Assembly (NCBI GenBank): GCA_018056925.1
Contig: JAGPEO010000004.1
Coordinates: forward strand, 1 to 33,218
Direction of reading: 5' to 3'
Length of the DNA stretch: 33,218 bases
Origin: Phycisphaerae bacterium
Lineage (GTDB): Bacteria > Planctomycetota > Phycisphaerae > UBA1845 > Fen-1342
Part shown: piece after piece, positions 14,683-33,218 of the stretch
How positions within the stretch are numbered: position 1 is the stretch's first letter
Layout: every line of letters begins with the position of its first letter
Program-made: the position numbers and the translations under genes
The notes under the pieces: generated by a model
What the model was told of the DNA's origin: nothing
The model's database searches: none
What the model saw: only the letters and a program-made list of their open reading frames with translations

Positions 14683-19098
<4,416 letters not shown>

Positions 19099-19147
19099 CG
19101 GCTGTACTACCTCTCTATTGAAAACTCACTCGGCGGGTAACCGCCGA

Positions 19148-19678
19148 TCAGTCGTTTCGTGCTCCATTTGACGACACCGCCTGTCCGGCCGCCCGCGACG
19201 ATCCGGCTGGTGCGGTGCTGCCCGGCCACTGGTCGGCCCGCATCGTCATGCCCACGAGGCCGCCTTGCTTCTGGAAACCCAGTTCCTCCAGGAAATCCAC
19301 CTCGGTGCCCCAAGCCACTACGTCCACACGCCGAATGCCGTCGGTGAACAGCTTGCCCAGCACACGTCGGGCCATTTCCAGAGCAATGCCGTTGGTGTCA
19401 TGTTCGATGCGGCCGTCCTTCTTGGTCACCGCCGCCGGACCCTGGTAACGCGGGTCCAGCTTGCACTCAGTCAGGTAGCCGCGCAGCCCGTCGCAAACGC
19501 CACGGGCGATGCCGATCAGCTTCCCGTCCAAGCGGGCGGTGACAAAAGTAGCGCTGTTGGCCAGCATCTTCTCAATCTGTTGCGGCTGGGCGGCGATGTC
19601 GTGCTGAACTTGGATGTAGAATTCGGCCAGCTCGGCCGGCGTAACATCGGTTCCGGTCCCGTAGACCACTTCGGACAT
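19148..19678 (-). CDS. GNAT-family N-acetyltransferase encoded between rpoB and rpoC
   Basis: The 176-residue product looks like a single GNAT fold. It has TPAELAEFYIQVQ (helix 1), ATFVTARLDGKLIGIARGVCDG (strands 2-3, about 43-64), a motif-A-like region HDTNGIALEMARRVLGKLFTDGIRRVDVVA (93-122) in which the usual Q/R-x-x-G-x-G/A is D94-x-x-G-x-A, and the closing strand-helix pattern VDFLEELGFQKQGG (127-140). The C-terminal 25 residues are Ser/Ala/Gly-rich and likely disordered. The family transfers acetyl from acetyl-CoA to an amine; substrate unknown. The ATG at 19678 was chosen for GGAGG seven bases upstream; an in-frame upstream start at 19723 would abut the rpoB stop but has no such site. 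It lies 45 bases after rpoB and 49 before rpoC, so it must be cotranscribed with both. Family call is by pattern only. Confidence 0.8.
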   Translation of the reverse strand: MSEVVYGTGTDVTPAELAEFYIQVQHDIAAQPQQIEKMLANSATFVTARLDGKLIGIARGVCDGLRGYLTECKLDPRYQGPAAVTKKDGRIEHDTNGIALEMARRVLGKLFTDGIRRVDVVAWGTEVDFLEELGFQKQGGLVGMTMRADQWPGSTAPAGSSRAAGQAVSSNGARND

Positions 19679-19723
19679 CAACCCGCCTCCTCGGGAATTA
19701 CGAATGCGCTTTTCTGCATTCAC

Positions 19724-22700
19724 TTATCCCAGCCGGCTCTTTTCGAGCTGGATGTTCAACCCCAGCCCACGAATCTCATTGCAGAGCACGTCGAACGAGA
19801 CCGGCGTACCGGCGTCGAGTGTGTGCGTGCCCTTGACCATGCTCTCGTAAATCTTGGTGCGTCCTTCGACGTCGTCGCTCTTGACCGTCAGCAGCTCCTG
19901 CAGCACGTAAGCCGCGCCGTAGGCCTCCAGGCCCCAGACTTCCATCTCGCCGAAGCGCTGGCCGCCGGTGCGGGCCTTGCCGCCCAACGGCTGCTGCGTG
20001 ATCAGGCTGTACGGGCCGGTCGAGCGGGCGTGAATCTTGTCATCCACCAGGTGATGCAGCTTGAGCAAATACATGTAACCCACGGTCACCGGCTGATCGA
20101 ACGGCTCGCCCGTGCGACCGTCGTACAGTGTTATCTTGCCGCTGCGCGGCATTTCGACCAGCAGCTCCCGCGTCTGCCCGGCATTGCGGACCACGTCCGG
20201 TTCCTGCCGGCGCTTGCGAACCAGGGCATTGGCCTCATCCACGCAGGCCTTGATCTCGGCCTCTTTGGCGCCGTCGAAGACCGGCGTGACGGCCTGGAAG
20301 CCCAGCACCGCCGCCGCCCAGCCCAAGTGCGTCTCCAGAATCTGCCCGACGTTCATACGGCTCGGCACGCCCAGCGGGTTGAGGCAGATGTCGATCGGCG
20401 TGCCATCCGCCAGAAACGGCATGTCCTCTTCGGGCAGGATCTTGGCAATGACGCCCTTGTTACCGTGCCGCCCGGCCATCTTGTCGCCGATCGACAGGGT
20501 GCGCTTGGTCGCCACGTAGACCTTGACCATTTCCAGCACGCCCGAAGGCAGTTCGTCGCCACGCTTCATGTGCCCCAGGCGACGCTCGCATTCGCTGGCG
20601 ATGTCGGCGATCTTGGGCCAGTACTGGTTGTAAATGGCCTCGGCCTCATCGCGCTTGCTGGCGGGCTTGACCCACTTGAGCGAGAAGGTGTCAATCTGTT
20701 CGCGGATGACTTCCGGGTTCTCGCTGCGCCCCACCTTCTGGCGCGTATTCGGGTCGATCAACACCTGCTCGGTCGCGGCCTCGATGGCCGTCACCATCTG
20801 CCGGAACAGTTTGATGCGCCGCGCATCGCAGTCGGCCTGGAAGGCCTTCATCTGCCGTTCGAGTTCCCGCTTCTGCTCTTCAGACAGGTGCGTGCGCCGG
20901 CTGAAGTGCCGCGTGCCGATCACGATGCCTTCCTGCCCGGCCGGCAGTTCGAGCGAGTCGTTCTTCACGTCCTCGCCGGCCCGTCCGAAGATCGCATGCA
21001 GCAGCTTCTCTTCGGGCGACAGCTCGCTCTTGCTCTTCGGCGAAACCTTGCCCACCAGAATGTCGCCCGGCCCGACGCGCGTGCCGATGCGCACGATACC
21101 CTTGTCGTCCAGGTTGCGCAGGGCGCGCTCCGAAACGTTGGGAATGTCGCGCGTGAACTCCTCGCGGCCCAGCTTCGTCTCACGAATCTCCACATCGTGC
21201 GACTCGATATGAATGCTCGTGAAAGTGTCGGTCTTGACCAGCCGCTCGGAGATCAGAATGGCGTCTTCGAAGTTGTAGCCGTCAAAGGTCATGAACGCGA
21301 CCAGCACGTTCCGCCCCAGCGCCAACTCGCCCTGGTGCGTGGCGGCGCCGTCCGCGATCACCTCGCCCGCCTTGACCTGCTGGCCGGGCTTGACGATCGG
21401 CTTCTGGTTCAGGCAGGTGCGCTCGTTGAGGCCCACGAACTTCCGCAGATCGTACTCGTCCGTGTCATTGATCACGATGCGCCGCGCATCGACGTACGTC
21501 ACCTTCCCGCTCGTGCGCGCCCGAACCACCATGCCGCTGTTCTCGGCCACTGCCCGTTCCATGCCGGTCGCGATGATCGGCGGCTCGGTCCGCACCAGCG
21601 GCACCGCCTGACGCTGCATGTTCGAGCCCATCAACGCACGGTTGGCGTCGTCGTGCTCGAGGAACGGAATCAACGCCGCCGAAACGCCGACCGTCTGCTT
21701 GGGCGAAATGTCAACGTACTCGATGTCGTCCGAGGTGGATTGCTGCAACTCGCCGTGAACTCGGGCCAACACGGCCCCGTCCTTCAGCTTGCGAGGCTTA
21801 CGCGCCCCGTCCGACCCGTCCCGCATTCGCCGCAGATACTCCTCACGCGGCACGACCGGGTGAAGCTCGCCGTCCTTGCCCTCGTCCACGACATCGGGCG
21901 GACCGAGAACGGTTTTCATTTCCTCATCGGCCCGCAGGTACACGACTTCGCCGTTTACCTTGCCGCGCTCCACCTTTCGGTAGGGCGTAATCAGGAAGCC
22001 GTACTCGTCCACGTCGCTGTAGATGCCCAGCGATGCGATCAAGCCGATGTTCACGCCTTCCGGCGTTTCGATCGGGCAGATGCGGCCGTAGTGGCTGATG
22101 TGTACGTCGCGGACTTCGAAGCCGGCCCGCTTGCGGTTCAGACCGCCCGGCCCCAGGGCCGACAGGCGCCGCTCGTGTGTAAGCTGCGCCAGCGGGTTGG
22201 TCTGGTCGACCACTTGCGACAGTTCGCTGCGGCCGAAGAAGAAGTCGATCGCGCTTGAAATACTCTTCGTGTTGACCAGTTCGGCGACTTTTCCGATCGA
22301 CTCGGGGTCCTTCAGGCTCATGCGCTCCTGAACGGTGCGGCGCAGCTTGAGGAAGCCCTTGCGCATCTCGTCGGAGGCCAGCTCATCGATGGTCCGCAGC
22401 CGGCGGTTGCCCAGGTGGTCGATGTCGTCCACCTGCCCGTCGCCAGAACGCAGGGCCAGCAGGTACTTCAGCGAGCTGACGAAGTCCTCCGGGCGCAGCA
22501 CCATTTCGGTTTCGGGGATGCCCTGTTCGAATTTGCGGTTCAGGCGGAAGCGCCCCACCTTGCCCAGACGATAGCGGGCGTCGTCGTAGAACTTCTCCTG
22601 GAAGAGCTTGCGCGCCTTTTCAAGCTGCACCGGGTTTCCCGGCCGCAGGCGGGCGTAGATCTTCATCAGGGCTTCTTCATGGGTGTGCGTGCTATCCTCG

Positions 22701-23548
22701 GCCAGCGTGTTCAGAATGATCGGGTCGACCATCTTGGCAATCACGTCGACCTGTTTGATCGAGGATTCACGAATCTTGTTGAGCGCCTCGCCGACCTGCG
22801 CACCGGCCCGCACTAGCTCTTCGCCGGTTTCGGGGTCGACGATCGCGGCGGCGGCGTACATGTCGGGCTTGAGGGCCTGCGTGCGGACCGTCTTCGAGGC
22901 GTAAAAGGTCTTTACTACCGCTTCGTCCGAGCCGTACCGCGGGTCCATCGCCCGCAGGAAGGTCGTCGCGGGTATCTTGCTGCTCTGGTCGATCCGGACC
23001 GCCAGCACGTCCTTGCGCGTCACGTTGATCTCGATCCACGAGCCGCGCTCCGGGATGATGCGACACGCGTGCAGGGCGCGGTCACCCTCGGCCGATTCCT
23101 TCACGAAGTCCACGCCGGGGGAGCGGTGGAGCTGCGAGACGATGACGCGCTCCGAGCCGTTCACGATGAACTCCCCGCCGCCCATCATGATCGGAATCTC
23201 GCCCAGGTAGATCGCCTCTTCCTTGACCTCCTCGACGTCCTTGCGGTGCAGACGCACGCGAACTCGGAATGGACGACCGTACGTCAGTCCCAGCTCGCGC
23301 GCTTCGTCGGGCGTGTACCGCGGCGGGTCGAGTTGGTAATCGACGTACTCCAGCCGCATGTTCCCGTCGTAGCTCTCGATCGGGAACACCTCGCGCAGCA
23401 GGGCCTCCAGGCCGATTGGCTGGCGTTTGGAAGGGTCAACCTTCACCTGGAGGAATCGGTCGTACGATTCCGTCTGAATTTCGATCAGGTTCGGAACGGG
23501 CACCGCGTCGCCGTGGCGACTAAAATCCCGAACGGAATTAATCAGCAT
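19724..23548 (-). CDS. rpoB: DNA-directed RNA polymerase subunit beta
   Basis: The second-largest RNA polymerase subunit, 1274 residues, complete. The rifampicin-pocket region reads [32 protein letters not shown]. The residues matching E. coli Q513, D516, H526, R529 and S531 are kept, so no classical resistance change is present. Downstream are the conserved [66 protein letters not shown] and the C-terminal [36 protein letters not shown]. Start ATG 23548 has GAGGGTGA upstream. The usual preceding genes rplK, rplA, rplJ and rplL are absent: the next gene is ruvX on the opposite strand. Transcription probably starts at the promoter at 23744-23771, leaving a leader of nearly 190 bases. Confidence 0.98.
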
Positions 23549-26433: not shown

Positions 26434-27435
26434 ATGACGAGCGTCTTCCGCGTAGGCGTCGATAGCTACAGCCTGGGCCCCCTGCGACTCAACCCGTTGG
26501 CACTGCTGGATTGGGCGAAGGCCAATGGGGCCGACGGAGCGCATTTCACTGACATCTACCTCGAGCCCGGACAGACGCTAAACGACGAGCTGCTGACCCA
26601 GGTGGGCCAGCGGGCTGCGGAGCTCGGCTTGTACGTCGAATGGGGCGGCGGACAGCACATCCCGTTCGACACAAACACGTGGCAGCCCAAAGACCTGCGG
26701 CCGATCAACGAAGCAGCGGCGCGGCAGGCGCGCCTGGTAGGGGCGCGCGTGGTGCGCTCGTGCTCGGGCGGGCTGATGCGCTGGTCTGACCAGGCGCCGC
26801 CGACAGAGACGCTGCTGCGCGAGACGGCGCGGGCTTTGCGGGCCCAGAAGGCAATGCTGACCGAACTGGGCATCGTGCTGGCAATCGAGTTGCACTTCGA
26901 ATTCACTACATTCGAACTGTTGCGGCTGTTCGACATGTGCGACGCGGAGCCCGGCGGATGCCTGGGCATCTGTCTGGACACGATGAACCTGCTCACGATG
27001 CTCGAAGACCCGGTGGCGGGGACCGAGCGGATTCTGCCGTGGGTCGTCGCGACGCACGCCAAGGACGGCGCACTGCGCCTGACCGACGCGGGGCTGGAGT
27101 CGTTCACCACCGAGATTGGCAACGGAGTTGTTAATTTCCCGCGAATTTTGTCGCGGCTGGCAAACCTCGACCGGCCGATCCACCTATCGGTCGAGGATCA
27201 CGGCGGCTCGTTCGCCCTGCCCATGTATGACCCAACCTTCCTGTCGCGCTTCCCCGACCTGACCGCGATGGAGTTGGCGCGATTGGTGCAACTAGCCCAT
27301 CGCACCCCCCCTGCCGCTGCCCCGCTGGAGCGTGCCGAGTGGCCCAAGCAATGTTCATCACGCTTGTCGCGGGACATCGCAAACCTTAAGGCCATCGTGG
27401 AGCGTTGGAGTTCTTCGACCGGGCGCGCCGTGTAG
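26434..27435 (+). CDS. Xylose-isomerase-like TIM-barrel protein (sugar isomerase/epimerase family)
   Basis: The 333-residue product fits the AP endonuclease 2/xylose isomerase-like barrel. The likely metal ligands are E152 (AIELHFEF), D182 (GICLDTMN), H208 (VATHAKDG) and E254 (HLSVEDHGG), each at the end of a predicted strand. Members act as sugar or ketose epimerases, inosose isomerases or dehydratases, hydroxypyruvate isomerases, and lyases or hydratases on 3-keto sugars; which one applies is not visible. The start ATG 26434 has GAGGAGGAG upstream. It is the first gene of the operon; the Old Yellow Enzyme-family gene follows after 13 bases. The C-terminal 50 residues (after LVQLAHRT) are basic and look like an added helical tail. 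A weak promoter candidate (TTGTAG, 17 bases, TATCCT) lies at 26346-26374. Confidence 0.83.
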   Translation: MTSVFRVGVDSYSLGPLRLNPLALLDWAKANGADGAHFTDIYLEPGQTLNDELLTQVGQRAAELGLYVEWGGGQHIPFDTNTWQPKDLRPINEAAARQARLVGARVVRSCSGGLMRWSDQAPPTETLLRETARALRAQKAMLTELGIVLAIELHFEFTTFELLRLFDMCDAEPGGCLGICLDTMNLLTMLEDPVAGTERILPWVVATHAKDGALRLTDAGLESFTTEIGNGVVNFPRILSRLANLDRPIHLSVEDHGGSFALPMYDPTFLSRFPDLTAMELARLVQLAHRTPPAAAPLERAEWPKQCSSRLSRDIANLKAIVERWSSSTGRAV

Positions 27436-27448
27436 AGGGTGGCAGGAA

Positions 27449-28852
27449 GTGGCAGCATCGCAGCACGAACGATTCCGGCTTGTCGACCTTGCGGGCCTGG
27501 CGGCCTGCGCCACAAGGATTGGCGTCAGCATCCCCTACTCCGACGACGTTCGCGTCCTTCTTTCGCCGCTGCAGCTTGCCGGCCGGCGTTTGCCCAACCG
27601 TTTCGCCGTTCAACCAATGGAGGGCTGCGACGCGGAGCCCGACGGCGCGCCGGGGCCGCTGACTCTGCGGCGCTACCAGCGTTACGCGGCGGGCGGTAGC
27701 GGGCTGATCTGGTACGAAGCTACAGCCGTGACGCAGGAAGGGCGCGCGAATCCGCGCCAACTCTGGATCACTGCGGCTAACGTCGGCGCGTTTCGAACGC
27801 TGGTGAACGAAACGAGGGCGGCGGCCCGGGATTGCTGGGGAACTGCACACGATCCGCTGCTTATCCTGCAACTGACACATTCTGGGCGTTATGCCCGGCC
27901 CGACGGCAGGCCACGCCCCGTGATCGCCCAGCACAACCCTATCCTCGATCCGCGGCTGGGGATCGGGCCGGATTATCCGCTGGTCACCGACGCCGAGCTC
28001 AACCGCCTTCAGGACGCATTTGTCAGCGCGGCCGAATTGGCGGCCGCCGCGGGCTTCGACGGCGTCGATATCAAAGCCTGCCACGGTTACCTGGTCTCAG
28101 AACTGCTGGGGGCGTTCACGCGACCACACAGCCGCTACGGCGGACCGTTCGAGAACCGGGCCCGCTTTCTGCTGGAGGTCGTGCAACGCATCAGGGCGCA
28201 AGTACCCGCGGTTTTCGTCACCAGCCGGTTCAACGCACACGACGGCCTGCCACATCCGCACGGCTTCGGCAACGACGAAGAGGCGCTGACCGAAGCGTGT
28301 GAGTTGGCGCGGCGTCTGCGCGCTCTGGCTTGTCCGGTGTTGAACGTGTCGTTGGGAAATCCCTACTACAACCCGCACTTCGGCCGGCCTTATGATTCGC
28401 CTATCGCTTGGGCGGCGACTCCCGACGAGCATCCGCTGGCCGGCGTAGCGCGCCTGCTGCAGGCCGCTGCGACCGTTCAACGCGCGGTGCCCGACGTTCC
28501 AGTGATCGGCGCCGGATATAGCTGGCTGCGGCATCTGTTTCCGCACGTGGCCGCAGCGGTCGTTTCAGCCGGCAACGCCGCGCTGGTTGGCCTCGGGCGC
28601 ATGGCGCTGGCGTATCCCGATTTCGTGAAGGATTTGGCGCAAAACGGCGCCCTTGACCCCAAAAAGACTTGCACAGCTTGCTCAGGCTGCAGTCAGATCA
28701 TGCGCGACGGGGGGCGCGCCGGCTGTCGCGTGCGCGATCCTGAAATTTACGCGAAGGAGTACCGCGAGGGCCGCGCCAGGGCCGTCAGCCAGTCGAAAAC
28801 CGGCCCCACACAGTCGAGCGGGCCAGCGCCAGCGGAGGCCTCGCGGTCATGA
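27449..28852 (+). CDS. Old Yellow Enzyme-family NADH:flavin oxidoreductase with a C-terminal cysteine cluster
   Basis: The 467-residue product has the FMN-binding barrel of this family: NRFAVQPMEGCDAEPDGAPG (50-69), LLILQLTHSGRYARP (137-151), FDGVDIKACHGYLVSELLGAFTRPHSRYGGPFENRARFLLEV (203-244), and IGAGYSW/VGLGRMALAYPDFV for phosphate binding. The K-x-C-H-G-Y-L at 209-214 replaces the usual H-x-A-H-G-Y-L. After the barrel, C408-x2-C411-x2-C414-x11-C426 resembles the [4Fe-4S] site of 2,4-dienoyl-CoA reductase (C-x2-C-x3-C-x11-C), but the FAD/NAD domains of that enzyme are missing. The start is GTG 27449 (GAGGG nine bases upstream); the frame is open further upstream inside the preceding gene. 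It ends in ATGA overlapping the FAD protein gene. Substrate unknown; it should reduce or oxidise a conjugated carbonyl-type intermediate. Confidence 0.87.
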   Translation: MAASQHERFRLVDLAGLAACATRIGVSIPYSDDVRVLLSPLQLAGRRLPNRFAVQPMEGCDAEPDGAPGPLTLRRYQRYAAGGSGLIWYEATAVTQEGRANPRQLWITAANVGAFRTLVNETRAAARDCWGTAHDPLLILQLTHSGRYARPDGRPRPVIAQHNPILDPRLGIGPDYPLVTDAELNRLQDAFVSAAELAAAAGFDGVDIKACHGYLVSELLGAFTRPHSRYGGPFENRARFLLEVVQRIRAQVPAVFVTSRFNAHDGLPHPHGFGNDEEALTEACELARRLRALACPVLNVSLGNPYYNPHFGRPYDSPIAWAATPDEHPLAGVARLLQAAATVQRAVPDVPVIGAGYSWLRHLFPHVAAAVVSAGNAALVGLGRMALAYPDFVKDLAQNGALDPKKTCTACSGCSQIMRDGGRAGCRVRDPEIYAKEYREGRARAVSQSKTGPTQSSGPAPAEASRS

Positions 28853-30873
28853 CCAGCTTGCCGGCGGAAGTCTTGGCGGCCGGGGCGGAGTTGCAGCTAT
28901 ACAGCACGAACACGCTGATCGTCGGCTCTGGGGCGGCCGGGCTGAATGCGGCGCTGCAACTCGTCGCGCATGGGCAACGCGATGTAATCCTGGTGACAGA
29001 ACGCTGGGGCGCCGGGGCGTCCAATGAGGCCGGTTCCGACAAGCAGACCTACTACAAGCTTGCGCTGGCCCACGCGGCGCTCGATTCGCCGCGGCAGATG
29101 GCCGAGGACCTGTTTGCCGGCGGCAGCATGCACGGCGACATCGCACTCTGCGAGGCCCAGCATTCCGCCCAGGCCTTCTACCACCTCGTCGCCCGCGGCG
29201 TGCCGTTCCCGCATGACCGGTACGGGGCGTATGTCGGCTATCGCACGGACCACGACCAGCGCGGCCGGGCGACATCCGCCGGACCTTTGACCTCGCACCT
29301 GATGTGCGAATGCCTGGGTCGGGCAGTGCGCGAGGCGGGCATCAAGGTCCTCGACCAGCACCAGGTTGTGGCGCTGCTGACGTACGAGGCCCGCTCCGAG
29401 AAGCACGTGTGCGGAGCCGTCGCCCTGGATATGAACAATCTGGACAGTCCACACCACGGGCTGGTCGTGTTCAACGCGGTAAACGTGATTCTCGCCACTG
29501 GCGGTCCCGGCGGCATGTATCGCACCACGGTGTACCCGCACAGCCAGGTTGGCTCGACCGGTATGGCATTGGCGATCGGCGCCGCGGCGAACAACTTGAC
29601 CGAATCGCAATTCGGCCTGGCATCGACGAAGTTCCGCTGGAACTTGTCCGGCACCTATCAACAAGTGATTCCGCGCTACGTCTCGACCGACGCCAACGGC
29701 GGCGACGCGCGCGAGTTCCTCAACGAGGCCTTCCCTGACCTGCGCTCGCTGGCCGGCGCAATCTTCCGTAAAGGCTACGAGTGGCCGTTCGACTGCGCTA
29801 AGGTGCGCGGGCACGGCTCATCGCTGATCGACCTGCTCGTTTACCAGGAAACTGTACGCCGCGGCCGGCGGGCATTCCTCGATTTCACGCAGAATCCGAC
29901 CGATCCGGCCGGCCGCGAGCCGTTCTCGCTGGATTGTCTGGATGAAGAGGCGCGCACGTATCTGCAACGGTCAGGCGCCACCGCGGCGACACCCATCGAA
30001 CGCCTGCGGCAGATGAACGAGCCGGCCTATCAACTGTACCGTTCTCACGACATTGACCTGGTCCGGGAGCCGCTCGAAATCGCGGTCTGCGCCCAGCACA
30101 ACAATGGCGGACTGGCCGGCAATATCTGGTGGGAATCCAACATCCGCCACCTGTTCCCCATCGGCGAAGTGAACGGCACGCACGGCGTCCGCCGCCCGGG
30201 TGGCGCGGCTCTGAACGCGGGCCAAGTCGGCGGGTTGCGGGCTGCGCTCTTCATCGCCCGCCGGTACGGCGTAGCGCCGCCCGCTGCGAACGACTTCGTG
30301 AAGCGCGTCGAGGCGCAACTCGCTGACAGTTTGGAATTCGCCCGTAGCGTGACTGCGCGATCGAGCGGCGGACTGAAACCGGAGCAGGTTATCGCTGAAA
30401 TCCAGGAGCGCATGTCGAGCTGCGCGGCGATCGTCCGGGAAGTCGGCGCGATCCGGGCCGCGGCCGAGGCGGCATGGCGCCTGCACAAACGCGTACAACG
30501 CGAGTCGTCCGGCTCACTGCCGCTTGCCTTCCGCGCCCGGGACATGTGCCTGACTCACGCCGTTTACTTGGAAGCGTTGCGTGAATATCTCGAACGCGGT
30601 GGCCAGTCGCGCGGTTCGTATCTGGTCCTTGACGCCCGCGGCGCGACGCTCGATGCGAACTTGGACGAGGAATGGCGTTTCGGCCTGGCGCATCCGGCGG
30701 ATTTCGTGAGTCAAAACATCCTGGAAATCGAGCTGGCCGCTGACCAGCACGCGGACGTCGCCGCTGAGCAGCATGTCCAGAAGCGCTGGGTCCCAATCCG
30801 GCCGATCCCGAAGCCGGACGGCTGGTTTGAGAATGTATGGAATGACTACCGCCACGATCGCATCGTGCAGTAA
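28849..30873 (+). CDS. Fumarate reductase/succinate dehydrogenase-like FAD-dependent oxidoreductase
   Basis: The 674-residue protein opens with a Rossmann FAD site, TLIVGSGAAGLNAAL (22-36). It continues with ERWGAGASNEAGSD, a second FAD contact VNVILATGGPGGMYRTT, and the late FAD motif LFPIGEVNGTHGVRRPGGAALNAGQVGGLRAA. This is the flavoprotein architecture of FrdA/SdhA/L-aspartate oxidase. The covalent-FAD and substrate motifs of true succinate dehydrogenases are not evident (SNEAGSDKQTYY and CAQHNNGGL stand in their place), so the substrate is probably different. A helical C-terminal domain follows (470-674). The start ATG overlaps the stop of the Old Yellow Enzyme-family gene by four bases (ATGA), implying coupled translation and perhaps an electron-transfer pair. 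No membrane anchor or iron-sulfur subunit gene is nearby. The stop region is duplicated downstream (see repeat). Confidence 0.87.
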   Translation: MTSLPAEVLAAGAELQLYSTNTLIVGSGAAGLNAALQLVAHGQRDVILVTERWGAGASNEAGSDKQTYYKLALAHAALDSPRQMAEDLFAGGSMHGDIALCEAQHSAQAFYHLVARGVPFPHDRYGAYVGYRTDHDQRGRATSAGPLTSHLMCECLGRAVREAGIKVLDQHQVVALLTYEARSEKHVCGAVALDMNNLDSPHHGLVVFNAVNVILATGGPGGMYRTTVYPHSQVGSTGMALAIGAAANNLTESQFGLASTKFRWNLSGTYQQVIPRYVSTDANGGDAREFLNEAFPDLRSLAGAIFRKGYEWPFDCAKVRGHGSSLIDLLVYQETVRRGRRAFLDFTQNPTDPAGREPFSLDCLDEEARTYLQRSGATAATPIERLRQMNEPAYQLYRSHDIDLVREPLEIAVCAQHNNGGLAGNIWWESNIRHLFPIGEVNGTHGVRRPGGAALNAGQVGGLRAALFIARRYGVAPPAANDFVKRVEAQLADSLEFARSVTARSSGGLKPEQVIAEIQERMSSCAAIVREVGAIRAAAEAAWRLHKRVQRESSGSLPLAFRARDMCLTHAVYLEALREYLERGGQSRGSYLVLDARGATLDANLDEEWRFGLAHPADFVSQNILEIELAADQHADVAAEQHVQKRWVPIRPIPKPDGWFENVWNDYRHDRIVQ

Positions 30874-30909: not shown

Positions 30910-31695
30910 ATGAGCAATCATCCCGTGGCTTTCGTGACCGGCGCCAGTCGCGGAATCGGACGCGGCATCGCCCTGGCGCTGGCGGCCAGCGGCTTTGACG
31001 TGGTCGGCAACGCCCGGACCTACGACCCAAAGGATCGACACACGGGACTGGCTGAAGTGCAGGACCGCGCGCGCGAACTCGGGGTCGAGTTTGAACCCGT
31101 TGCGGGAGACATCGCCAACCTCGAGTCGCACCCGAGACTGCTCCAGGCCGCCCTGCAGCGCTTTCGCCGCGTTGACGTGTTGGTCAACAACGCCGGCATC
31201 GCGCCGCAAAAAAGGCTCGACGTACTCGAAACAACCCCAGAGAGCTTCGACCGCCTGCTGGCCGTAAACGCACGCGGCCCCTTCTTTCTGACGCAGTGCT
31301 TCGCCCGCCACATGCTCAGCCAGCCGCGCGGCCCGCTTACCCCGGCGATCATTTTCGTCTCATCGATTTCCGCCGAGGTATCTTCGCCCTCGCGCGCGGA
31401 ATACTGCATTTCCAAAGCAGCCCTGAGCCAGGCCGCCACCGTTTTCGCCGATCGCCTGGCCGAAGCCGGCATCAACGTCTACGAGGTCCGGCCGGGAATA
31501 ATCGCCACCGACATGACGGCCCCCGTGAAAGCGCAGTACGATGCGCGCATTGCCGCCGGGCTGGTCCCGCTGCGACGGTGGGGCCAGCCGGAAGACGTCG
31601 GCCGGGCCGTGGCGGCGCTGGCCCGCGGCGACCTCGGCTACGCCACCGGCCAGGTGATTGAGCTGAGCGGCGGCATGAACATTCGGCACTTGTAA
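30910..31695 (+). CDS. Short-chain dehydrogenase/reductase (SDR), NAD(P)-dependent
   Basis: The 261-residue product is a classical SDR: cofactor motif TGASRGIG (10-17), NNAG (93-96), a serine around S152-S154, catalytic Y165-x-x-x-K169 and RPGIIATDM after the sixth strand. It resembles 3-oxoacyl-ACP reductases in sequence style, but the position in a sugar-type operon favours oxidation or reduction of a sugar, sugar acid or polyol hydroxyl. Two features are distinctive: the segment NARTYDPKDRHTGLAEVQ after strand 2, which fixes the cofactor choice, and a 10-residue insertion (SQPRGPLTPA) before strand 5. ATG 30910 has GGAG six bases upstream and was preferred to TTG 30898. The gene follows the FAD gene after 36 bases and precedes the aldolase-kinase gene by 25 bases. 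Confidence 0.9.
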   Translation: MSNHPVAFVTGASRGIGRGIALALAASGFDVVGNARTYDPKDRHTGLAEVQDRARELGVEFEPVAGDIANLESHPRLLQAALQRFRRVDVLVNNAGIAPQKRLDVLETTPESFDRLLAVNARGPFFLTQCFARHMLSQPRGPLTPAIIFVSSISAEVSSPSRAEYCISKAALSQAATVFADRLAEAGINVYEVRPGIIATDMTAPVKAQYDARIAAGLVPLRRWGQPEDVGRAVAALARGDLGYATGQVIELSGGMNIRHL

Positions 31696-31720: not shown

Positions 31721-33218
31721 GTGAGCGTCTCGGAGTCACTTTGGGAAAAGCTTAGGCACTACCGGCTCACGGCGCTGCTCGCGCCGCAAAGCCCCGAAGC
31801 GTGCGTGGCCGCGTATGAACTGTTTGAGCCGCTGGGGGTGGTGCTGGAGATCGCGCTGCGAACCAGCGCCGCTTTAGACGGCATCGCTGCGGTCCGTCGG
31901 CGTCACCCAAACGCGCTCCTGCTGGCCGGCACCGTGCTGACGGCCAGCCAGGCCGAACAGGCCATCGCGGCCGGGGCGGCGGGAATCGTTTCGCCCGATT
32001 ATCTGCCGCCCGTGGTGCAGGTGTGCGTGGCGCGCGACGTGATGTGCGTTCCGGGGGGCTTAGGCGATGTTGGCAAGCAGCTTGCGCAAAAGGCGGAAGG
32101 CTACGGCTGCACGTTGGCGGAGTTGCGAAAGCATCATCCGTATCAGTGGGTGCACAAACTCTTTCCGGTCACAGCAGGCGGCGCGCTCTTGGTAGACGTA
32201 GCCGCCGCCTGGCAAGCGGTGTATCCCGAGCTGACGGTGATGTACACCGGCGGGGTGACGTTCGAGCGACTGGCTGAAATCGTGCGGCGCGACCCGCGCG
32301 CCATCATCTGCGGCTCGGCCCTGACGCGCCGCATTGAGGACGCCCAGGCCACTGCGGCCGAGGCGCAGCGCTGGCTTGACGTTATCCACGGCCGCGCGTC
32401 GGGCACGCCCCAACATGCGCCCCGCACGACGGCCGCCCAGCCGACGCCGGCCGCAGGCGCGGTGGTCACGTTAGGCGAAATCATGTTGCGCCTGACCCCG
32501 CCGCCGGGTCGCCGCTTTAGCCAGGCCGGCAGTCTGGACGCGTCTTTCGGCGGCGCGGAAGCAAACGTCGCGGTGGCACTGGCGCAGTGGGGCGTTCCGT
32601 CACGCTTCGTAACCGCCGTGCCGGATCAAGCACTCGGCCACGCGGCAATTGAAGCCCTGCGGGCCCACGGCGTCGACACTAACCACGTGTTGCGTCACGG
32701 CACGCGCCTGGGTCTTTATTACCTTGAACAAGGGGCGGCGCAGCGCCCGGCGCGGGTCATTTACGATCGAATGAATTCAGCCATTGCAGAGCTGCCGCCC
32801 GGTAAGGTCGACTGGAATCCAGTCTTTGACGGCGCCGACTGGCTACACTGCACCGGAATCACGCCCGCGCTGAGCCCTTCCACAGCCGAGCTGACGCGCC
32901 AGGCTCTGAAAAGCGCAAAGCGGGCGGGTTTGACAGTGAGCTTCGACCTCAACTACCGCGCCAAGCTCTGGCCGCCGCAGCGGGCGCGCGAAATCCTCAC
33001 GCCGCTGATGCAGCACGTCGACGTCCTGATCTGCAACGAAGAGGACGCCGCACAGGTTTTCGGCATTCACGCCGGCAACTCAGACGTCGCAGCCGGAAAG
33101 CTCGACGCGGAAGCTTACCGAAACGTCGCCGAGCAATTGCTTTCTCGCTTTGGCTTTAAGGCCGTGGCAATCACGCTGCGCGAGAACCTCTCGGCCTCTG
33201 ACAACCGTTGGTCGGCTT
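31721..33218 (+). CDS. Fused KDPG aldolase-2-keto-3-deoxygluconate kinase, cut by window end
   Basis: The frame starts at GTG 31721 after a purine-rich ribosome site (GAGAGG) and remains open at the last base (499 codons seen). Residues 1-225 are a KDPG/KHG aldolase: E43 in VLEIALRT, LLAGTVLTASQAEQAIAAGAAGIVSPDY (67-94), Schiff-base K146 in VHKLFPV, and MYTGGVTFERL plus ICGSAL for phosphate binding. A Pro/Ala/Thr linker (226-246) leads to a PfkB-family sugar kinase that starts VVTLGEIMLRLTPPPGRRFSQAG and contains FGGAEANVAVALAQWG, SFDLNYRAKLW and ICNEEDAAQVFG, all typical of KDG kinases; the C-terminal ATP-binding and catalytic GAGD motif lies beyond the window. The two parts perform consecutive steps: kinase KDG to KDPG, aldolase KDPG to pyruvate and glyceraldehyde 3-phosphate. 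This identifies the operon as catabolic for a sugar acid-type substrate. Confidence 0.9.
   Translation, partial: MSVSESLWEKLRHYRLTALLAPQSPEACVAAYELFEPLGVVLEIALRTSAALDGIAAVRRRHPNALLLAGTVLTASQAEQAIAAGAAGIVSPDYLPPVVQVCVARDVMCVPGGLGDVGKQLAQKAEGYGCTLAELRKHHPYQWVHKLFPVTAGGALLVDVAAAWQAVYPELTVMYTGGVTFERLAEIVRRDPRAIICGSALTRRIEDAQATAAEAQRWLDVIHGRASGTPQHAPRTTAAQPTPAAGAVVTLGEIMLRLTPPPGRRFSQAGSLDASFGGAEANVAVALAQWGVPSRFVTAVPDQALGHAAIEALRAHGVDTNHVLRHGTRLGLYYLEQGAAQRPARVIYDRMNSAIAELPPGKVDWNPVFDGADWLHCTGITPALSPSTAELTRQALKSAKRAGLTVSFDLNYRAKLWPPQRAREILTPLMQHVDVLICNEEDAAQVFGIHAGNSDVAAGKLDAEAYRNVAEQLLSRFGFKAVAITLRENLSASDNRWSA

Follow-up and report, generated by a model that had tools for sequence, protein, structure and literature searches.

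A conserved OYE and FrdA-like flavoprotein gene pair in a putative sugar-acid operon of a Phycisphaerae bacterium

In the 2,4-dienoyl-CoA reductase FadH of Escherichia coli (PDB 1ps9), an old yellow enzyme (OYE) barrel is followed by four [4Fe-4S] cysteines and, in the same chain, by C-terminal FAD and NADPH domains; single-domain OYEs such as YqjM, chromate reductase and xenobiotic reductase end without a cluster segment. Enzymes of the FrdA/SdhA fold usually work with an iron-sulfur subunit, and both OYE and FAD_binding_2 enzymes act on C=C bonds adjoining a carbonyl or carboxylate. Here we analysed a 33,218-nt stretch of Phycisphaerae bacterium contig JAGPEO010000004.1 (GCA_018056925.1), hereafter the window, in which genes for an OYE and a FrdA-like FAD protein adjoin on the plus strand. 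An initial annotation had proposed that the two products form a two-subunit flavin/iron-sulfur enzyme, with the FAD protein feeding electrons to a cluster on the OYE. Judged from sequence and gene context, the two genes form a genuine and well-conserved flavoprotein module belonging to an uncharacterised pathway for sugar acids, and the two-subunit enzyme is the less likely reading. On balance, we favour a sugar-acid catabolic operon in which the OYE and the FrdA-like protein act as two separate redox enzymes. The features of the pair are as follows.

27449..28852, plus strand: OYE-family ene-reductase with a [4Fe-4S]-type cysteine motif and without FAD/NAD domains (PF00724, FadH alignment)
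28073..28093, plus strand: active-site motif K-A-C-H-G-Y-L, residues K209-L215 (sequence)
28670..28726, plus strand: CTACSGCSQIMRDGGRAGC, C408-x2-C411-x2-C414-x11-C426, predicted [4Fe-4S] ligands after the barrel (FadH alignment, conservation)
28849..28852, plus strand: ATGA, OYE stop and FAD-gene start, 4-nt overlap (open reading frame coordinates)
28849..30873, plus strand: FrdA/SdhA/NadB-fold FAD protein, distinct subfamily (PF00890, AlphaFold, Foldseek)
29032..29058, plus strand: GSDKQTYYK family signature of the FAD protein; S63 and K65 invariant, G62, D64, Q66 and T67 nearly so (family alignments)
30091..30111, plus strand: AQHNNGG, at the position of the FrdA/NadB substrate-histidine motif (alignment to FrdA AHYTMGG and NadB AHYTCGG)
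30193..30216, plus strand: R-P-G-G-A-A-L-N, at the position of the FrdA substrate-arginine motif (alignment to FrdA NRLGSNSL)

The 467-amino-acid OYE carries a single Pfam domain, Oxidored_FMN PF00724 (E=2.5e-32; 112.9 bits against a gathering threshold of 27), which agrees with the initial annotation that the FAD and NAD domains of FadH are lacking from the chain. Its start codon is uncertain, as the same open reading frame to 28852 could begin with GTG at 27449 or at 27332; AGGAA directly abuts the GTG, and OYE homologues begin near the same residue. Comparison with FadH (profile of 38 sequences, hidden Markov model alignment, probability 99.6%) placed the window cysteines on C335-x2-C338-x3-C342-x11-C354, at the same place after the barrel, so the likeness to FadH claimed earlier was right in position, with a spacing of x2-x2-x11 and not the x2-x3-x11 of FadH. 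About 40 OYE homologues from many phyla that are linked to an FAD gene (an OYE within about 10 kb of it) share the pattern C-x2-C-x2-C-x11(12)-C; because it recurs so widely, the motif is more than chance. The Tyr of G-Y-L is also kept, whereas M-G-S-E-G-Y-L of FadH is K-A-C-H-G-Y-L in the window, with H in place of the active-site E, and the genomic setting is different. Over the barrel, the best PDB matches are the single-domain OYEs named above, and chromate reductase has the common H-x-A-H-G-Y-L where the window protein reads K209-A-C-H-G-Y-L215, a departure that the initial annotation had correctly picked out. Nearly every linked homologue has the lysine, in the form K-x-[CAV]-H-[GR]-Y, and most cluster-bearing ones have K-x-C-H-[G/R]-Y. 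A structure model of the OYE from its single sequence had a pLDDT of 38 and was discarded. From its domain and cysteines, the protein would be an FMN enzyme with one extra predicted [4Fe-4S] cluster.

The FAD protein matches PF00890 (E=8.6e-21). When an AlphaFold model built from 58 relatives (pLDDT 93.3, pTM 0.94) was searched with Foldseek, FrdA/SdhA were closest (E to 4e-29, TM-score mostly 0.6-0.8, identity 12-20%), followed by PAPS/APS reductase and L-aspartate oxidase. The whole FrdA/SdhA fold is shared, including the C-terminal helical part, with R449 at the substrate-Arg motif; identity is nevertheless at most 20%, and key residues differ. At the site of what we take to be the covalent-FAD histidine of FrdA (R-S-H-T-V-A region), the window protein has A-S-N-E-A-G, and no histidine is conserved there in the family consensus; QYHPT of FrdA is QFGLA, replacing its histidine, although the register of this comparison is uncertain in weakly aligned parts. 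The residues that align with the presumed substrate histidine and arginine motifs of FrdA are strongly conserved within the family: G420 and G421 are invariant in AQHNNGG, with Q416 and H417 kept in over 90%, and in R-P-G-G-A-A-L-N, G452, L455 and N456 are invariant, with R449 kept in over 90%. NadB is the best sequence-profile PDB match, but the window protein has A-Q-H-N-N-G-G for A-H-Y-T-C-G-G and lies far below the NCBIfam cut-off (TIGR00551, 93.8 bits against 452.75); assignment to FrdA/SdhA failed likewise (TIGR01812, 78.6 against 567.3). A Pfam scan of the window genes found no FrdB/SdhB-type iron-sulfur subunit gene adjoining the FAD gene. Modelling and motifs together set the protein apart as a subfamily of its own within the FrdA/NadB fold. 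Because Pfam recognised no pyridine-nucleotide-binding domain above cut-off, it does not stand out as a carrier of electrons from NAD(P)H to the cluster.

Within the phylum, 34 of 294 genomes encoded a homologue of the FAD protein, and no relative was found in the viral contigs searched. The best 80 of at least 187 candidate places in a species-level genome collection, many of them on short contigs, span Clostridia, Halanaerobiales, Planctomycetota, Lentisphaerota, Aminicenantes, Armatimonadota, Acidobacteria, Spirochaetes, Actinobacteria, an archaeal bin and others. At these 80 loci, the FAD gene had an SDR dehydrogenase gene nearby in 60 and an OYE gene in 43, making the SDR its most constant partner. 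OYEs with cluster cysteines were linked to both FAD and SDR genes in Clostridia, Halanaerobiales, Aminicenantes, Planctomycetota, Armatimonadota and others. Overall, 52 of about 80 informative FAD loci had a linked OYE, 41 of these with the cluster. On a tree of 114 FAD proteins, the OYE neighbourhood of 29 could not be judged, absence being called only with at least 4 kb of flank on both sides. A cluster-type OYE lay close to the FAD gene in 41 of the 114 and an OYE without complete cysteines in 11; the rest comprised 3 with an unlinked OYE, 1 partial case and 29 with none. In the 13-member clade of the window protein, starred on this tree, all 11 informative members have a cluster-type OYE. 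The four-cysteine motif of the initial annotation is thus conserved in close homologues (aligned set of linked OYEs), and the two genes usually occur together. In a bin of Halanaerobiaceae (L075:2200-2320), the second cluster-cysteine codon of the OYE is TGA and the motif continues in frame, with sequencing error, pseudogene and selenocysteine all candidate explanations; it was counted among the 11 only because of this codon.

The translational coupling through ATGA was borne out by the sequence, and the same 4-nt overlap was present at four further loci (L067, L068, L070, L076). Among the top 30 Planctomycetota OYE matches, all 13 with the cluster have the FAD gene in the genome, and no FAD gene was found for any of the 17 without the cluster (Fisher p=8e-9). 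Such observations would suit a two-subunit enzyme in which electrons move between the FrdA-like FAD subunit and the OYE cluster in the manner of FrdA and FrdB: the overlap recurs, cluster-type OYEs are linked to the FAD gene at 41 loci, cluster and FAD gene co-occur in the top matches, and no iron-sulfur subunit of the kind that FrdA/SdhA-fold relatives usually work with is encoded beside the FAD gene. However, the association of cluster and FAD gene rests on about two independent changes; because the tree offers only 2 independent pairs, it lends no phylogenetic support to correlated evolution of the two, an idea that we rejected. In many planctomycetes (L180-L195, e.g. L184:6157-7584, G194), a close relative of the OYE has K-x-C-H-[G/R]-Y and lacks the cluster cysteines; the FAD gene was not found in these organisms as far as searched.

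Three further lines of evidence argue against the FAD protein as the subunit that feeds the cluster. First, in a complete genome of the same class (G127), the OYE C-terminus is fused to Fer4_20 and Pyr_redox_2, a GltD-like NAD(P)H/FAD/[4Fe-4S] module, and an Armatimonadota bin (L120) and genomes G075 and G031 encode similar fusions of about 880 amino acids. The fusion genes are the following.

L046:12395-15088, minus strand: OYE-GltD fusion (Fer4_20 and Pyr_redox_2 by Pfam)
L120:6445-9084, strand not marked: OYE-GltD fusion (GltD-like by tblastn)
L176:8585-11233, minus strand: OYE-GltD fusion (GltD-like by tblastn)
L177:6144-8789, strand not marked: OYE-GltD fusion (GltD-like by tblastn)

These proteins (about 880-897 amino acids) all keep the cluster motif and differ in architecture from FadH. 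Each of the four is accompanied by a FrdA-like gene, at its locus or elsewhere in its genome; as the fused module gives the OYE an electron route of its own, the FAD protein must do something else there. Second, none of the four cysteines is present in the linked OYEs of Victivallales, Thermoguttaceae and one additional lineage (n=10, one clade), which share their clade with cysteine-less planctomycete OYEs for which no FAD gene was found, indicating that the pairing exists without the cluster; the cysteines are hence not present whenever the two genes are paired. Third, Cellulomonas, Rhizobium and E. coli have FAD-protein homologues with no OYE in the neighbourhood, and in Cellulomonas and E. 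coli the FAD gene lies with an SDR gene and no OYE gene. As the SDR is also the more frequent neighbour (60 against 43 of the 80 loci), we consider a two-subunit enzyme quite unlikely. The conserved linkage and the cysteines stand, whereas the role proposed for the FAD protein, as the subunit that supplies the electrons, is not supported; the OYE and the FAD protein are, by these comparisons, probably two individual enzymes that share a pathway, rather than subunits of a single enzyme.

If the two act separately, some other low-potential protein would supply the OYE with electrons, the candidates being a GltD/Nfn-type NAD(P)H:FAD/[4Fe-4S] reductase and a ferredoxin. The GltD/NfnB-type module that is fused to the OYE in four relatives is not fused in the window, but separate GltD-like proteins are encoded elsewhere in the window's genome, one of them beside a DHODB/NfnA-like gene. 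The latter pair (L203:1462-3898, minus strand, on G000:C81) is possibly NfnAB and a candidate electron donor for the OYE.

The genes flanking the pair place it in a sugar-acid setting.

26434..27435, plus strand: TIM-barrel AP_endonuc_2 protein, sugar isomerase/epimerase type (PF01261), upstream in the gene cluster
30910..31695, plus strand: SDR dehydrogenase (NF009386, 340 bits against a cut-off of 250)
31721..33217, plus strand: fusion of KHG/KDPG (2-keto-3-deoxy-6-phosphogluconate) aldolase and a sugar kinase of the KDG (2-keto-3-deoxygluconate) type, cut by the window end (NF041633, 722 bits against a cut-off of 700)

Close homologues of the TIM-barrel protein are found at similar loci (L066, L071, L103). 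Other FAD loci add IlvD-type dehydratases, Zn-dependent alcohol dehydrogenases, Gfo/Idh oxidoreductases, LacI regulators and AP_endonuc_2 proteins, together with gene clusters read as TRAP transporters by gene size and annotated as such in E. coli. A gene of the oligogalacturonate-lyase family (PL22) in G127 and a heparinase II/III family gene at another locus point to uronate-type substrates, which are probably the substrate class here as far as gene content can tell. In the pathway that we propose, the OYE would reduce (or form) a C=C bond adjoining the carbonyl of an intermediate. The FrdA-like protein would be an oxidoreductase in its own right, FAD-dependent and acting on a keto or hydroxy acid; it and the SDR would carry out oxidations or reductions at adjacent positions of that intermediate. 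The product would then be phosphorylated and cleaved by the KDG-kinase/KDPG-aldolase fusion, entering the lower Entner-Doudoroff steps. Of this scheme, the order and conservation of the genes, the alignment of the cysteines, the FAD-protein fold and the fusions are observed, and the cofactors, the electron donor, the direction of the reactions and the class of substrate are inferred from them.

The two enzymes might also be separate yet redox-coupled, the FAD protein dehydrogenating one intermediate and a carrier such as ferredoxin passing the electrons to the OYE for reduction of a later one; the net reaction would be an isomerisation or dehydroxylation that is redox-neutral, akin in kind to bile-acid 7-dehydroxylation. 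The bai gene set for that conversion includes proteins of the OYE, SDR and FAD-protein kinds, which the present trio resembles in kind; the chemistry of both families at C=C bonds beside a carbonyl or carboxylate and the linkage in many anaerobe lineages would also fit. As its reactions are hypothetical, and the FAD protein occurs without an OYE in other organisms, we regard such coupling as unlikely.

A relative of the FAD protein was present in 3106 of 5426 complete E. coli genomes (57%), within an island between ytfB and rplI. In strain HS, this island (L199:2524-11447) encodes an SDR, a sugar isomerase family protein, an enoyl-CoA hydratase family protein, a CoA transferase, the FAD protein and a TRAP transporter, with no OYE; the FAD protein is 40% identical to its window counterpart and the SDR 46%. 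Literature searches found no described function for this island. Its CoA transferase and enoyl-CoA hydratase family genes, along with the alignment of the cluster cysteines on FadH, would agree with an OYE that acts on CoA thioesters like 2,4-dienoyl-CoA reductase and sits in the window operon by chance. This is very improbable given the H in place of the FadH active-site E with a K three residues before it, the lack of a CoA ligase or thiolase gene at the window locus, and the KDPG-aldolase/KDG-kinase neighbours.

Returning to the reading of two separate enzymes in a sugar-acid operon, several points weigh against it. Of about 45 cluster-bearing OYEs, only 4 are GltD fusions, which leaves the donor of the window's OYE as one that we infer, and the perfect co-occurrence of cluster and FAD gene in the top Planctomycetota matches also suits a direct partnership. 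Presence and absence of KduI across carriers of the FAD gene show no clear pattern, and literature searches found no paper on this gene cluster, its substrate or its activity. KduI was not found in the window's genome (84% complete, so that absences there are weak) nor in the complete G127, and is present in the FAD-bearing G126, G192, G197, G241 and G286. Replacement of KduI by the OYE/FAD cluster was considered; because other carriers have KduI, its absence does not settle the route. UxaC was likewise not found in the window's genome, an absence weakened by the same incompleteness.

Further observations concern the surroundings of the pair. In the complete genome of L046, which has no KduI match, three tandem genes of ~440 amino acids forming one homology cluster lie beside the OYE/FAD genes (L046:435-4383, minus strand), and the one scanned is PL22. 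URO-D-family genes, resembling uroporphyrinogen decarboxylase, occur near the FAD gene in different lineages (L046:11374-12417, minus strand; L069:4871-5890; L095:977-2020). In the window, rpoC and rpoB lie upstream of the cluster on the minus strand (14683-23548), and the remaining genes are ordinary (UDPGP, GSDH, an ABC transporter and an M2/M3 peptidase).

Together, these comparisons define two enzyme groups that are recognisable from sequence: OYEs with a FadH-type cluster, either stand-alone or GltD-fused, and a FrdA-fold FAD family with the motifs G-S-D-K-Q-T and A-Q-H-N-N-G-G. Members of both are encoded in sugar-acid operons that are widespread and have no assigned reaction. The natural OYE-GltD fusions provide a concrete hypothesis for the electron donor, and the E. 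coli relative makes the FAD/SDR half amenable to a simple knock-out. More tentatively, and with our judgement close to evenly divided, the OYE, the SDR and the FrdA-like protein may together make up an undescribed pathway that handles uronic or other sugar acids by flavin-dependent chemistry, forming and reducing C=C bonds to reshape the carbon chain ahead of KDPG-type cleavage; such a pathway would be spread over anaerobic polysaccharide degraders of many phyla, with a homologous FAD-SDR branch in over half of complete E. coli genomes.

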